Source of the DNA: Candidatus Sumerlaeota bacterium
GTDB lineage: Bacteria; Sumerlaeota; Sumerlaeia; JAFGJS01
Assembly (NCBI GenBank): GCA_016928995.1
Contig: JAFGJS010000151.1
Span: 34,769 to 98,768, forward strand
Length of the DNA stretch: 64,000 bases
Direction of reading: 5' to 3'
Shown: piece by piece, positions 15,051-20,458 of the stretch
Position numbering within the stretch: the stretch's first letter is position 1
Layout: each line of letters starts with the position of its first letter
Notes under the pieces: generated by a model
What the model saw: only the letters and a program-made list of their open reading frames with translations
Database searches by the model: none
What the model was told of the DNA's origin: nothing
Made by a program: the position numbers and the translations under genes

Positions 15051-15983
15051 TCAGTCGACGTCCGGGTATATCGGGACTTCGTCCGTGGTTTGGATCACCT
15101 CGGCCACGGGGCGGCGTTTGAGCGCCATCAATCGCGCGCCGCGCGCATCGCGATGCGACGGCCGCGAAGTCGCCTTGCCATCGCCATTGCCGTCCAGCAG
15201 GCAATGCTCCGTTTGGAAGAGATTCCCCTCAGTGTAAATCTCCTCCACTCGCCGCTTGCACTCCAGAAAGATCTCATCCGCGCTGAGCAGTTTGTCGCCA
15301 TCCAGATCGCTGGACGGAGTCTCCAGCACCACGGCCAGCACTCGCGCGAACTCGGTTTCGTTCGCCTTTTCCTCTTCGTTGCTGGCAGTGATGAATATAC
15401 GGCCCTCAGCGGCGAGTTCCTCGATCATCTTGCCGCTCAAGGTCATGGTCAAGATCACCGCCAATCCTCCTGCCGGCTTCACTTCAGCCAGCATCTCGGC
15501 TAGATCCTTCTCGGAGATGTCCGGTCCCGGCAGATTATACATCACCCGGCCGCGCGACTGATTGCAATGGCCGAGGAAGATCGCCCAGACCGGCGCCCCG
15601 TCGTGCGAGAGTTCCGCCATTCGCGCGGTTTCCTCGCGCAAGCCGTCCGCGTCGCAAGCGCCCCAGCCTTCGCGCTGCCCCTGATCGTAGCGCACAGTGA
15701 TGTCCTGCGCCTCGATCTCATAGTACGCGGTCAGCGCCTTGACATAATCCTCCAGCAGCCCGCGATAAAACGCCTCGCGCTCCTCGTCGCCCGGCGCTCC
15801 CATGAAAATCCAGACACGCGGCGCGGCATTGAGTTGCGAATTTTCTATCGATTGTGTCGTGGGCGCATCCGGAGTCATGGACGGTTCCAGCGGAGTCGCC
15901 CACGCTGATCCGCCCCAAATGACTACTGCGCCAAACATCACCGTCAGCAAAAATCGTATCAAGCCGCTGCTCCCATTCGCCAT
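15051..15983 (-). CDS. Secreted C13/caspase-like protein with EF-hand, active site degenerate
   Basis: 310 residues. It begins with a signal peptide (hydrophobic 10-28, AWA cleavage near 29). The next 170 residues follow the pattern of bacterial legumain-like (C13) or caspase-fold proteins: WAIFLGHC with H139, then YNLPGPDISEKDLAEML, then a strand ending TMTLSGKMIEELAAEGR and ITASNEEEKANETEFAR. Active members would place the catalytic Cys after the second strand, but here it reads T-L-S183. Two calcium loops follow: DLDGDKLLSADE (226-237), a full EF-hand, and DGNGDG (264-269). I infer a secreted, calcium-binding, probably non-proteolytic member. Family assignment by motif only. Confidence 0.65.
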   Translation of the reverse strand: MANGSSGLIRFLLTVMFGAVVIWGGSAWATPLEPSMTPDAPTTQSIENSQLNAAPRVWIFMGAPGDEEREAFYRGLLEDYVKALTAYYEIEAQDITVRYDQGQREGWGACDADGLREETARMAELSHDGAPVWAIFLGHCNQSRGRVMYNLPGPDISEKDLAEMLAEVKPAGGLAVILTMTLSGKMIEELAAEGRIFITASNEEEKANETEFARVLAVVLETPSSDLDGDKLLSADEIFLECKRRVEEIYTEGNLFQTEHCLLDGNGDGKATSRPSHRDARGARLMALKRRPVAEVIQTTDEVPIYPDVD

Positions 15984-16269: not shown

Positions 16270-18456
16270 TCAGGACTTCAATCCCCGGGCGGCAATCTTC
16301 CGTTCCCAGCGCGCCGAACCATGACGTGCGGCGTCCACCACGCTCTGCGGCGCATGCGCCCAAGGCACGCGCAAGACGCTGTCCTGATACACGTTGCTGT
16401 TCGCCACATAGATGCTCGTGGCGTCGCTTCCCGCGCTCAACCGCTTGAGCGGAATCGGATCGGGCAGTTCGTCCGCCACTTCGACATGATCCGGAAAAAA
16501 GCGGATCGTTCGGCGAAACCGGCCATCCGCGCGGCGTTTGCCGGTGATCAGAATCTTCTGGATCGTGGAGCGCAGCAAATTCGGAAAAAATCGCCCGGCG
16601 GTTATGTTGAGCAACCGAAACACGACCATGCGCAGGGGGCTGTTGAGTTTTTGCTGGCGATAACTGAATTCGCCGTCGCAACTGAAAGCCGGCGCGGCGT
16701 TGGGATCATGATTCGACGCGGGCGAGACTTCCAAATTCCGAGCCTTCACTTCGTGAAGTTCATCCATCAAGTGCGAAACAATCACTTTTCCGTTGTCCAA
16801 CTCGCCGATCAGTCCGGTGTCGCTCGCGAGGCATTGAAAACTTTCCGGCGACAACTCTGTACTTTCTTCCGGCGTAGAACCGTCGGGATAAACGCGCGGC
16901 ATCCATTCCCGGATCTGCGCCTCCAAGGCCACGACCAATTTGACTGGAACGCCAGTCTGGCGCTCCAATTCCATGCGCAGTTGCGCATTCAACGGATCGG
17001 CCACCGCCGTCAGGAGTTCGCCTTCTTCCATCATGCAAATCGGCAGACAGCAATAATGCTCCGCGAGATCCGCAGGCAAGCGCTCCGCCACGCCGGGATC
17101 GAGTTCGTCGTCGAATTCATTCAGGTCAGCGAACATCAGATCACGATTTTCGCACAGCAGGCGAACCATCTCCTCGCCGCTGACTTCGATGGCGTCCGAT
17201 TCCTTGAAAATTTCCGCCTGACGCGCTTCCTTCTCGTATTGATCGTAGAGCGTCTTCGCGTCGAAACGGTTCGTATACGACGCCGCGTCGATCTTTCCGG
17301 GCGAGCGTCCGAACACCTTGATTACGCCGCCCTTGTTCAGGTTCGCCACGGCGTAATACGCGTCCGTCTTGCAGACCGCCAGCCCCGCGTCGGGATGCCA
17401 TTTGAGGAAATTCTCGCGCGTGTTGATCGGCGGAAAACGCTGCTCGCCGTTCGCAGGCTGGGACGGCTCATAATAATCATCCCACGCCTGAAGCCAGTTA
17501 TACACGCAATGGCATAGCATCCGGTCGTCGTCGTTGTGATAGCGCTTGTCCGCCGCCAACGAGCGTAGAAACTGATCCGCGATCTGCCCGGCTTTTTCCG
17601 AATGCCGCGCAATCAGCTCGAAGCCGTGCGGATAAAAATGATACGTGTTGCGGCTGCCGTACTCGCCGCCATAGGAGCCGTCCGGATGCATGAAATGCCA
17701 GGCGAAATCGACCGCCCGTTTCAGCGGATCGAGCAACTCATCGTATGGCTCGCCTTGCGCCTCGCTCTTCCGGTGCAGTTTGGCCAGAAAGTCGATCGTG
17801 CAGGTATGGTATCCCGGATCCGCGCCTTCGTATTCCTGGAACCAGCCCTCTTCCGGATGCTGCCAGGAGAGCGTCAACGCCGCCCGGTCCTCAGCGCACT
17901 GCCGGTATTTCTCATCGCCCGTGATGAGATAGATATTATACGCAGCCAAAGCCACAAAGGCCTGATGATTGGAGAGTTGTCCGGTTTCCTGATAACGGAT
18001 GAACAGCTCGCCGCGCCGCTGGAAAAACTCCGCCAACTCCGGATCGTCCAGTTGCAGCAGTTGATACGCTTCGGTGATCGCGTACGTGGAGAACGCCAGC
18101 GCCCCAAGCGCTTGCTCCCACGGGAAATAATCGTCGCACGAACCATCCTTGTGCGAGCCGCGCATGGCAAAATGCATCCCTGCGACGGCCAGTTCCCGCA
18201 TCCGCTCCCATTGGCAATACTTGTTACCCGGATAGTTGCGCACAAATAGCTGCGCGAAAGGCAGCACGAATTCCTGGCTCATGCCGCAAGGAAAATCGAG
18301 CGTGCGGTAATGCCAGTATTCCCGGTCAAAGCAACCGTAAGACGGGCTGTATGGATTTTTATCGCAAAGCTGCGTCAAATGCGGAACATAATCCAGCGCC
18401 AGCGCCGCATACCGGTCGCGCGGCTGCAAAGCGGCAAAGTGTCGAAGGTGCGTCAT
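16270..18456 (-). CDS. Heparinase-like (alpha/alpha)-toroid protein with inserted GspE/PilB N-terminal domain
   Basis: 728 residues, no signal peptide. Residues 1-390 are helix-rich with aromatic/His motifs typical of the (alpha/alpha)6 toroids of heparinase/alginate-lyase-like proteins: REYWHYRTLDFPCGM, HQAFVALAAYN and GSYGGEYGSRNTYHFYPHGFE are all in this part. Residues about 545-728 form a beta-sandwich end (SDTGLIGELDNGKVIVSH). Between them, about 425-525, lies a different module: LMFADL...RLPADLAEHY, LPICMMEEGELLTAVADPLN and a QTGVPVKLVVA segment ending with EWMPRVYP. That is the pattern of the type II secretion/type IV pilus ATPase N-terminal (GspE_N/MshEN) domain. The motif RLGxLL for cyclic-di-GMP binding is not visible. 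The enzyme substrate is unknown; a polysaccharide is plausible. Confidence 0.7.
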   Translation of the reverse strand: MTHLRHFAALQPRDRYAALALDYVPHLTQLCDKNPYSPSYGCFDREYWHYRTLDFPCGMSQEFVLPFAQLFVRNYPGNKYCQWERMRELAVAGMHFAMRGSHKDGSCDDYFPWEQALGALAFSTYAITEAYQLLQLDDPELAEFFQRRGELFIRYQETGQLSNHQAFVALAAYNIYLITGDEKYRQCAEDRAALTLSWQHPEEGWFQEYEGADPGYHTCTIDFLAKLHRKSEAQGEPYDELLDPLKRAVDFAWHFMHPDGSYGGEYGSRNTYHFYPHGFELIARHSEKAGQIADQFLRSLAADKRYHNDDDRMLCHCVYNWLQAWDDYYEPSQPANGEQRFPPINTRENFLKWHPDAGLAVCKTDAYYAVANLNKGGVIKVFGRSPGKIDAASYTNRFDAKTLYDQYEKEARQAEIFKESDAIEVSGEEMVRLLCENRDLMFADLNEFDDELDPGVAERLPADLAEHYCCLPICMMEEGELLTAVADPLNAQLRMELERQTGVPVKLVVALEAQIREWMPRVYPDGSTPEESTELSPESFQCLASDTGLIGELDNGKVIVSHLMDELHEVKARNLEVSPASNHDPNAAPAFSCDGEFSYRQQKLNSPLRMVVFRLLNITAGRFFPNLLRSTIQKILITGKRRADGRFRRTIRFFPDHVEVADELPDPIPLKRLSAGSDATSIYVANSNVYQDSVLRVPWAHAPQSVVDAARHGSARWERKIAARGLKS

Positions 18457-18478: not shown

Positions 18479-18892
18479 TCAATTAGCTAGAAAAGAATAT
18501 AATCTCGCACGTAATTTATCACATTTTTTTATCTCGCATTCCCAGACGACTAACACACTCCACCCTATCTTCTTTAGCGCCTTTCTGTTTGCTTTGTCAC
18601 GTTCAACGTTCCGCATGAGTTTCGGTTTCCAGTATTCCTGATTGGATTTTGGCATTCTCGAATCCAAGCATGTTTTCAAATGATGCTGATGCCAAAAACA
18701 TCCATGCACAAAAATCACTTTTTTCTTTCCAGCAAAAACAAGATCAGGCTTGCCAGGTAAATTTTTGCGATGAAGCCGGTACCGGAATCCCATGCTAAAA
18801 ATCAAACGGCGCACAACCATCTCCGGCTTTGTATCCTTAGATCGGATTTGCCGCATATTCTCACTACGTCTTTTCGGACTGATTTTGTCCAT
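18479..18892 (-). CDS. vsr: Very short patch repair endonuclease
   Basis: Nicks 5' of T in T:G mismatches arising from deamination of 5-methylcytosine, protecting sites of the neighbouring C5 methyltransferase. The 137-residue protein starts RRSENMRQIRSKDTKPE, then GFRYRLHRKNLPGKPDLVF with the catalytic Asp50, then VIFVHGCFWHQHH (zinc and active-site residues around 63-71). The end has the usual KALKKIGWSVLVVWECE. It overlaps the HNH gene end by 29 bases, so it is translated from the same message. The module is AT-rich compared with flanking genes. Confidence 0.96.
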   Translation of the reverse strand: MDKISPKRRSENMRQIRSKDTKPEMVVRRLIFSMGFRYRLHRKNLPGKPDLVFAGKKKVIFVHGCFWHQHHLKTCLDSRMPKSNQEYWKPKLMRNVERDKANRKALKKIGWSVLVVWECEIKKCDKLRARLYSFLAN

Positions 18893-19475
18893 GATTCATA
18901 AATTGGCAAGTTTGTTGCGGAAACTTTTGAACGAGCCATTTGAGCACCTGGACTTGATCGGCTCCTTTGGCCCGGCGCACTTGCGCCAATAATTTCAACG
19001 CAGAAGGCCGTTCTAATGTTAAGTTCGAGGCTCCTTCATTACACACTGAACAAATCGCACGCAGATTAGACGGATCATCGGTTCCGCCCTGTGATTTATC
19101 CACGATATGACCAATATGCAGCCGCGTTTTACGCGTTCTGTCATACGGATGAGGTTCGCCTGCAACAGCGCCGCACATCTGGCAGGTGAAGCCGTTGCGA
19201 TCCAAAACAAACGCGCGTGTCTCCTTTGATATAGCTCGTGCAAATGCGGGTTGTGGCTTGGGATCAAGAAGCAAATACTGACCCGGTTTTAAATCACTCC
19301 GGTCATTGTTTGTGAGAATCTGGTAACCTTCTTCGTTCCTCAACTCTCGTATCCGTCTGGCCCATTCCACTCTGCCACCGCTGACTTCATGCAGTTCATC
19401 AGAGTTCATCACTCTGCCAATGTTACTCAAAAAGTGCTCACGAAGCTTTGTACGAGCGCTTTTATTCTTAGCCAT
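18864..19475 (-). CDS. HNH-type restriction endonuclease with N-terminal winged helix
   Basis: 203 residues from the ATG at 19475, chosen because AGAGGA sits seven bases upstream. A longer version would run back into the methyltransferase gene. The N-terminal 75 residues look like a winged-helix DNA-binding domain (LREHFLSNIGRVMNSDELHE...WARRIRELR). The C-terminal half is an HNH nuclease: NGFTCQMCGA, then RLHIGHIVDKSQGG, then NLRAICSVCNEG, giving two CxxC zinc knuckles around the H-N-H core. Position between a C5 methyltransferase and Vsr makes it the likely restriction subunit of a type II system. The recognition site is unknown. Confidence 0.9.
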   Translation of the reverse strand: MAKNKSARTKLREHFLSNIGRVMNSDELHEVSGGRVEWARRIRELRNEEGYQILTNNDRSDLKPGQYLLLDPKPQPAFARAISKETRAFVLDRNGFTCQMCGAVAGEPHPYDRTRKTRLHIGHIVDKSQGGTDDPSNLRAICSVCNEGASNLTLERPSALKLLAQVRRAKGADQVQVLKWLVQKFPQQTCQFMNHGQNQSEKT

Positions 19476-19486
19476 CAATCTATCCT

Positions 19487-20458
19487 CTAACCAGCGATGG
19501 AAATAATCTTTGGATGAGCCAGACATTCCTTGATCGCGTGAGCGGCAGCATACGCCACAGGTGGAGGAAATGCATTACCCACCTGCCGGTATGCTGGCGT
19601 TTTCTTTCCTGCAAATATCCATTGGTCCGGAAAACCTTGGATTCTCGCCACCATTCGCACGGTTAAACGGGGCATGCCTTTGAAATTCTTGTCGGGAGGA
19701 AGATCAGCGATCCCCATGCCATCCACGCCTAACGAAGCCCAAGCTCTTTTTGCGCGCGTCGGTCCCAAATCGGGTCCGCCATGTTTTTTTGAACCGCCCA
19801 CAATCGTGGGCGCAATATCATCCGCTTGTTTCCGCCATTGATCGGCCATTTTCCAATTTCGCGCTGCCATCAAGTCATATAACAACTCTCCAACACATAA
19901 AGGATTCTGGTTTGCGATGGATGGCCATGAAAAATATTCAGATATATCTTTTCTAATTGCAACGACAACAACTCGTGGCCGCAATTGAGATACTCCAAAA
20001 TCTGAAGCGTTGAGCAACCGCCAATCCGTACGATAACCCAACTTCTCTAACTGCCGCTTGAGATTGGCACGATAATCCTCAAAAACAGCATCCAAAAAGC
20101 CACGAACATTTTCCAGCATCACCGCGCGCGGTCTGCATTCATCCACTAACCGAAGCGCTTCGGGAAATAAATCACGATCATCCGCTCGCCCAAGTTGTTT
20201 ACCGGCCACGGAAAATGGAGGACATGGCACTCCCCCCGCTAGCAAATCGATCCCACGATAACGCTCCGCGCTGAATTGACGGATATCATCCTCAATCACA
20301 TGCCACTTCGGCCGGTTATAGCGCAATGTGTCGCAACATGGCTTTTCAATCTCAACAAGCGCCTCTGGCTGGAATCCCGCTTGTTCCAGTCCTAAAGCTT
20401 GCCCCCCGGCTCCTGCGCAAATCTCAATGCACGAGAGATCTAACATCACAATGCTCAT
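19487..20458 (-). CDS. DNA (cytosine-5-)-methyltransferase
   Basis: Methylates C5 of cytosine within a specific site, using S-adenosylmethionine. The 323-residue protein has the ordered motifs: I (EICAGAGGQALGLEQAG), IV with catalytic Cys79 (GGVPCPPFS), VI (MLENVRG, E116), VIII (LRPRVVVVAI), IX (RMVARIQGFPD) and X (YRQVGNAFPPPVA). The variable target-recognition region, about 200-260, is short. It is the first gene of the minus-strand methyltransferase-HNH-Vsr set, with 11 bases to the endonuclease start. One 60-base line inside it (19921) has 22 G+C, well below the chromosome around it, which suggests horizontal transfer. Confidence 0.97.
   Translation of the reverse strand: MSIVMLDLSCIEICAGAGGQALGLEQAGFQPEALVEIEKPCCDTLRYNRPKWHVIEDDIRQFSAERYRGIDLLAGGVPCPPFSVAGKQLGRADDRDLFPEALRLVDECRPRAVMLENVRGFLDAVFEDYRANLKRQLEKLGYRTDWRLLNASDFGVSQLRPRVVVVAIRKDISEYFSWPSIANQNPLCVGELLYDLMAARNWKMADQWRKQADDIAPTIVGGSKKHGGPDLGPTRAKRAWASLGVDGMGIADLPPDKNFKGMPRLTVRMVARIQGFPDQWIFAGKKTPAYRQVGNAFPPPVAYAAAHAIKECLAHPKIISIAG

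Follow-up and report, generated by a model that had tools for sequence, protein, structure and literature searches.

A Sumerlaeota protein that appears to carry an MshEN_C domain inserted within a predicted toroid and beta-sandwich enzyme fold

The ORF at positions 16270 to 18456 (minus strand) of the window (the whole 64,000-nucleotide stretch of Candidatus Sumerlaeota DNA that was analyzed) was predicted to encode a protein of 728 residues in which an MshEN domain interrupts a putative enzyme with a toroid and a beta-sandwich. The ORF begins with ATG and contains no internal stops. Judged from sequence comparisons, this is a genuine new domain architecture built of known parts, seen in one metagenome-assembled genome, and searching the literature for MshEN in combination with heparinase turned up no paper. 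We give about even chances to the reading that the MshEN_C insert serves a glycan enzyme as a docking or allosteric module and not as a c-di-GMP sensor. MshEN domains are best known as the N-terminal part of ATPases or, fused elsewhere, as c-di-GMP receptors.

The Pfam model PF05157 matched residues 447 to 526 (16879 to 17118, minus strand) over profile positions 8 to 87 of 90 (E = 1.8e-14), in agreement with the initial annotation, which had placed a GspE_N/MshEN domain in the middle of the protein. The score of 53.9 bits, compared to a gathering cutoff of 23.1, assigns the domain to MshEN, and its E value rules out a chance match. Pfam matched nothing else anywhere in the protein at E values up to 5, a threshold at which the T2SSE ATPase domain (PF00437) was absent. 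Chains of PilB (E of approximately 1e-4 to 1e-5) and PilF from the PDB matched the same stretch, and the MshEN core pattern (LP..A..Y..LP, ADPLN, and VVA...I) was intact. The insert comprises the MshEN_C half only, and its region was predicted with low confidence in the model of the window protein (pLDDT mostly <50).

Homolog alignment delimited the inserted stretch to residues 386 to 541 (156 residues; 16834 to 17301, minus strand). A first scan, of GTDB genomes, recovered eight homologs of approximately 530 to 590 residues in Sumerlaeia, Kiritimatiellota, Planctomycetota, and Thermodesulfobacteriota, and about a thousand whole genomes searched later yielded many further homologs, 22 of them in the phylum of genome G085. 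The viral contigs searched contained no relatives. Among 63 distinct alignment rows, the MshEN stretch was found in one, the window protein, and in none of its 62 relatives, so that no other genome among these homologs carried the same insert. About 50 homologs from several phyla aligned on either side of the junction, where most had 3 to 14 residues compared to 157 in the window protein; the C-terminal match began further in for a handful of homologs, and about a dozen aligned to the N-terminal part only. Since homologs cross the junction without MshEN, the middle region is not a normal part of the lyase fold. The proposal of a domain inserted into a carbohydrate-enzyme-like protein was thus upheld, the insert-free form being the rule. 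From these alignments, the arrangement looks like a genuine domain insertion, so far in one genome. Long open frames in genomes G008, G010, and G873 were considered as further carriers and rejected, as the two host halves adjoin directly there.

In the alignment, the junction reads KGGVIKVF[insert]CLASDTGLIGEL. In the AlphaFold model of the insert-free Kiritimatiellota homolog L009 (pTM 0.84), the two-residue turn between strands 353 to 358 and 361 to 366 corresponds to the insertion site, and in the window model, strands 378 to 384 and 540 to 546 flank the insert. The latter model places the toroid up to about residue 335, followed by the first beta strands (from 350 to 354 through 378 to 384) and then the insert. 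On the basis of these strands and the turn in L009, the insert is predicted to lie within the beta domain, at the turn of a beta-hairpin; the site between toroid and sandwich that had been annotated for it was not retained.

The host protein that surrounds the insert consists of an (alpha/alpha)6-toroid half (residues 8 to 335; 17452 to 18435, minus strand), the first beta-domain strands (residues 350 to 385, ending in KGGVIKVFGRS; 17302 to 17409, minus strand), and the remaining beta domain (residues 542 to 728, beginning with CLASDTGLIGEL; 16273 to 16833, minus strand), as delimited by alignment and structure models. Both predicted structures (pTM 0.72 for one and 0.84 for L009) combined a toroid with an antiparallel beta-sandwich, the criterion of the lyase/uronyl-epimerase fold, and the toroid half aligned with sugar epimerases (best Z score 25.1 over 299 residues). 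The L009 model matched PL33 (Foldseek E = 5.5e-8), PL8, and other lyases, and it aligned over its full length with human dermatan sulfate epimerase 1 (DSE; Z score 21.2, 437 residues). PL33 and PL8 lyases, GAGases, and DSE (6hzn; PMC8006597) thus share the toroid and beta-sandwich with the L009 model, with approximately 10% identity and no sequence-family match. No Pfam or NCBIfam carbohydrate-enzyme model, heparinase models included, exceeded its cutoff in the window protein, and the same was true of the homologs scanned (four with Pfam and nine of A1 with NCBIfam), in which only weak pectate lyase matches were found. The term heparinase, as initially applied, is therefore kept for a likeness of predicted fold and dropped as a family assignment. 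A common fold alone does not establish the function of the host enzyme.

The window copy retained 134 of the 141 host positions that were at least 96% conserved in 25 homologs. The retained set included the near-invariant toroid residues N163, H164, E208, Y209, D213, Y216, and R269, as well as D546 and H562 in the remaining beta domain. The candidate catalytic residues N163, H164, Y216, and H562 were conserved. By a comparison of spacing and not a residue-level superposition, the 52 residues that separate H164 from Y216 are near the 56 between His205 and Tyr261 of DSE. Enzymatic activity of the host is presumed.

Several homologs were neighbored by GT2 or GT4 glycosyltransferases, a methyltransferase, or LPG_synthase_TM flippase-like proteins, and signal peptides, which mark a further difference from the known lyases and DSE, were not seen in homologs inspected by eye. 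Together, the lack of a visible signal peptide and the glycan-type neighbors make a cytoplasmic role in glycan assembly likely for the host family. No pilus or glycan genes were recognized beside the window copy. The methyltransferase found beside homologs had no match in the same genome at an E value of 1e-10, and the GT2 glycosyltransferase had a 42% match on another contig of that genome, whose surroundings showed no obvious glycan cluster. In the host tree, the window copy was sister to L009 (support 98/94) within a multiphylum group and apart from most Sumerlaeia copies, a placement across phyla from which horizontal transfer of the host gene appears likely.

Genes on either side of the enzyme gene were also examined. 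Directly upstream, at 18479 to 20458 (minus strand), ORFs for Vsr, an HNH endonuclease, and a C5-cytosine methylase are arranged head to tail and overlap one another, and the last ends 22 bases before the enzyme gene; these form a small restriction-modification cassette that may share a transcript with the enzyme gene. Downstream, at 15051 to 15983 (minus strand), lies an ORF for a 310-residue protein with no Pfam match at E values up to 0.01. The insert-free enzyme family itself (L009, 4257 to 7563; L010, 3580 to 6978; L011, L013, and L014) has no Pfam entry and, across several phyla, adjoins GT2 glycosyltransferase, methyltransferase, or LPG_synthase_TM genes. It is an uncharacterized family of glycan enzymes that deserves study in its own right.

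The best relative of the insert among the genomes searched was L002, a PilB/GspE-type ATPase encoded on contig C62 of the same genome, with 36% identity over residues 421 to 528. A class-level tree of 30 MshEN domains paired the insert with L002 at support of 100/99 but gave the insert a long branch (2.06); a wider tree that included the very divergent L008 and L048 was less clear, as long branches meet there. The L002 protein carries the PF00437 ATPase domain that the window protein lacks, and its gene adjoins a PilT-like gene. The genome contained 12 MshEN matches in all, and those of its MshEN proteins that were checked by Pfam either carried the T2SSE ATPase domain or were short stand-alone proteins. 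The latter include MshEN-like proteins of 255 residues (L008, 1429 to 2196, plus strand) and 262 residues (L132, 1279 to 2067, plus strand), the second encoded just upstream of an ATPase gene. Two Sumerlaeia MshEN proteins contain a motif-like NIGEILLREGLITNAQLDMALARQ followed by hydrophobic segments (L122, 507 to 1457, minus strand; L123, 525 to 1547, plus strand), and a domain scan of L122 showed a TM2 domain; both are possible membrane c-di-GMP receptors. A second non-ATPase MshEN protein in the class, a Sumerlaeia prepilin peptidase (A24) fused to MshEN (L048, 334 to 1995, plus strand), carries the domain behind the peptidase, toward the C terminus, whereas in the window protein it lies in the middle of a fold.

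MshEN domains that bind c-di-GMP are defined by two 24-residue motifs in MshEN_N, RLGxx(L/V/I)2xxG...LxxxLxxQ, and the role of MshEN_C in binding has been noted as unclear (PMC5013675). Neither a strict nor a relaxed form of the motif occurred anywhere in the window protein; the best 24-mer of the insert fit 3 of 11 motif positions, and stretches elsewhere in the protein fit no worse. L002 also lacked both motifs, and two other ATPases of the genome kept them in part (9/11 and 8/11 positions in L004; 9/11 and 6/11 in L007). With both motifs missing and only the MshEN_C half present, c-di-GMP sensing, which the initial annotation had raised, was ruled out on motifs, and a sensor role for the insert is not supported. 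The nearest NCBIfam model of the insert was NfrB (E = 1e-6), a c-di-GMP-activated glycosyltransferase (PMC8669469), and the insert might accordingly be imagined to switch its enzyme as NfrB does; that is very improbable given the motif results, and the NfrB match spans model positions 522 to 629, beyond the first motif (NfrB L490/G491; PMC8669469). Escherichia coli NfrB (GT2-MshEN) and the window protein are alike in joining MshEN to a polysaccharide enzyme. NfrB, however, has a complete c-di-GMP-binding MshEN at the C terminus of a membrane glycosyltransferase (PMC8669469), whereas the window protein has MshEN_C only, without motifs, inside a predicted soluble toroid and beta-sandwich protein.

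As the favored reading has it, a cytoplasmic glycan-modifying enzyme of the polysaccharide lyase/uronyl-epimerase fold would have gained a PilB/GspE-type MshEN_C domain at a beta-hairpin turn and would have retained its fold and conserved residues. The insert would most likely position or adjust the enzyme, by binding another protein or by acting allosterically. It may dock the enzyme to a partner in an assembly platform or in glycan assembly, or it may move nearby strands that bear D546 and H562; it lies a few residues from D546 and about 20 from H562. In favor of docking, the N1E domain of GspE, a module of the kind by which ATPases attach to inner-membrane platforms, binds the cytoplasmic domain of GspL 1:1 (PMC6882859). 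Counted against this reading are its occurrence in one metagenome-assembled genome, where a second species that would point to selective retention is lacking, the branch length of 2.06, the low confidence of the insert in the model, and the absence of recognized pilus or glycan genes beside the window copy. The PF05157 region is also not exactly the N1E domain, for which Pfam has a separate model (GSPE_N1E). The main rival is a neutral insertion tolerated at a permissive turn. Hairpin turns commonly tolerate inserts, and the single genome and the long branch fit such an origin, but the intact core pattern and a score far above the cutoff suggest selection on the fold, and the reading frame is undamaged. 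Neutral insertion is rated as a real but lesser possibility.

A chimera of the enzyme gene and a PilB gene, produced by assembly or binning, could be suspected in a genome of the metagenome-assembled type with 161 contigs. The insert nevertheless keeps the reading frame at its two junctions, falls precisely on the homologous turn, and has a composition (GC, 0.566; GC3, 0.673) close to that of the flanks (GC, 0.58 to 0.59; GC3, 0.717). Nothing in the genome is nearer to it than 36% identity, so it cannot be a fragment of an intact resident gene that was joined in by mistake; we consider a chimera highly improbable. More specific than docking in general is recruitment of the enzyme to a type IV pilus or type II secretion platform through a PilM/GspL-like partner, which is unlikely although the closest relative, L002, adjoins a PilT-like gene. 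That an MshEN docking domain tethers the putative glycan enzyme to such a platform is, by our estimate, doubtful; if true, it would physically link glycan modification to the assembly of envelope machines.

The window protein offers a nonbinding MshEN_C half alone inside an unrelated enzyme fold, with approximately 60 insert-free homologs for comparison. It thus provides a clean natural experiment on the function of MshEN_C in isolation.
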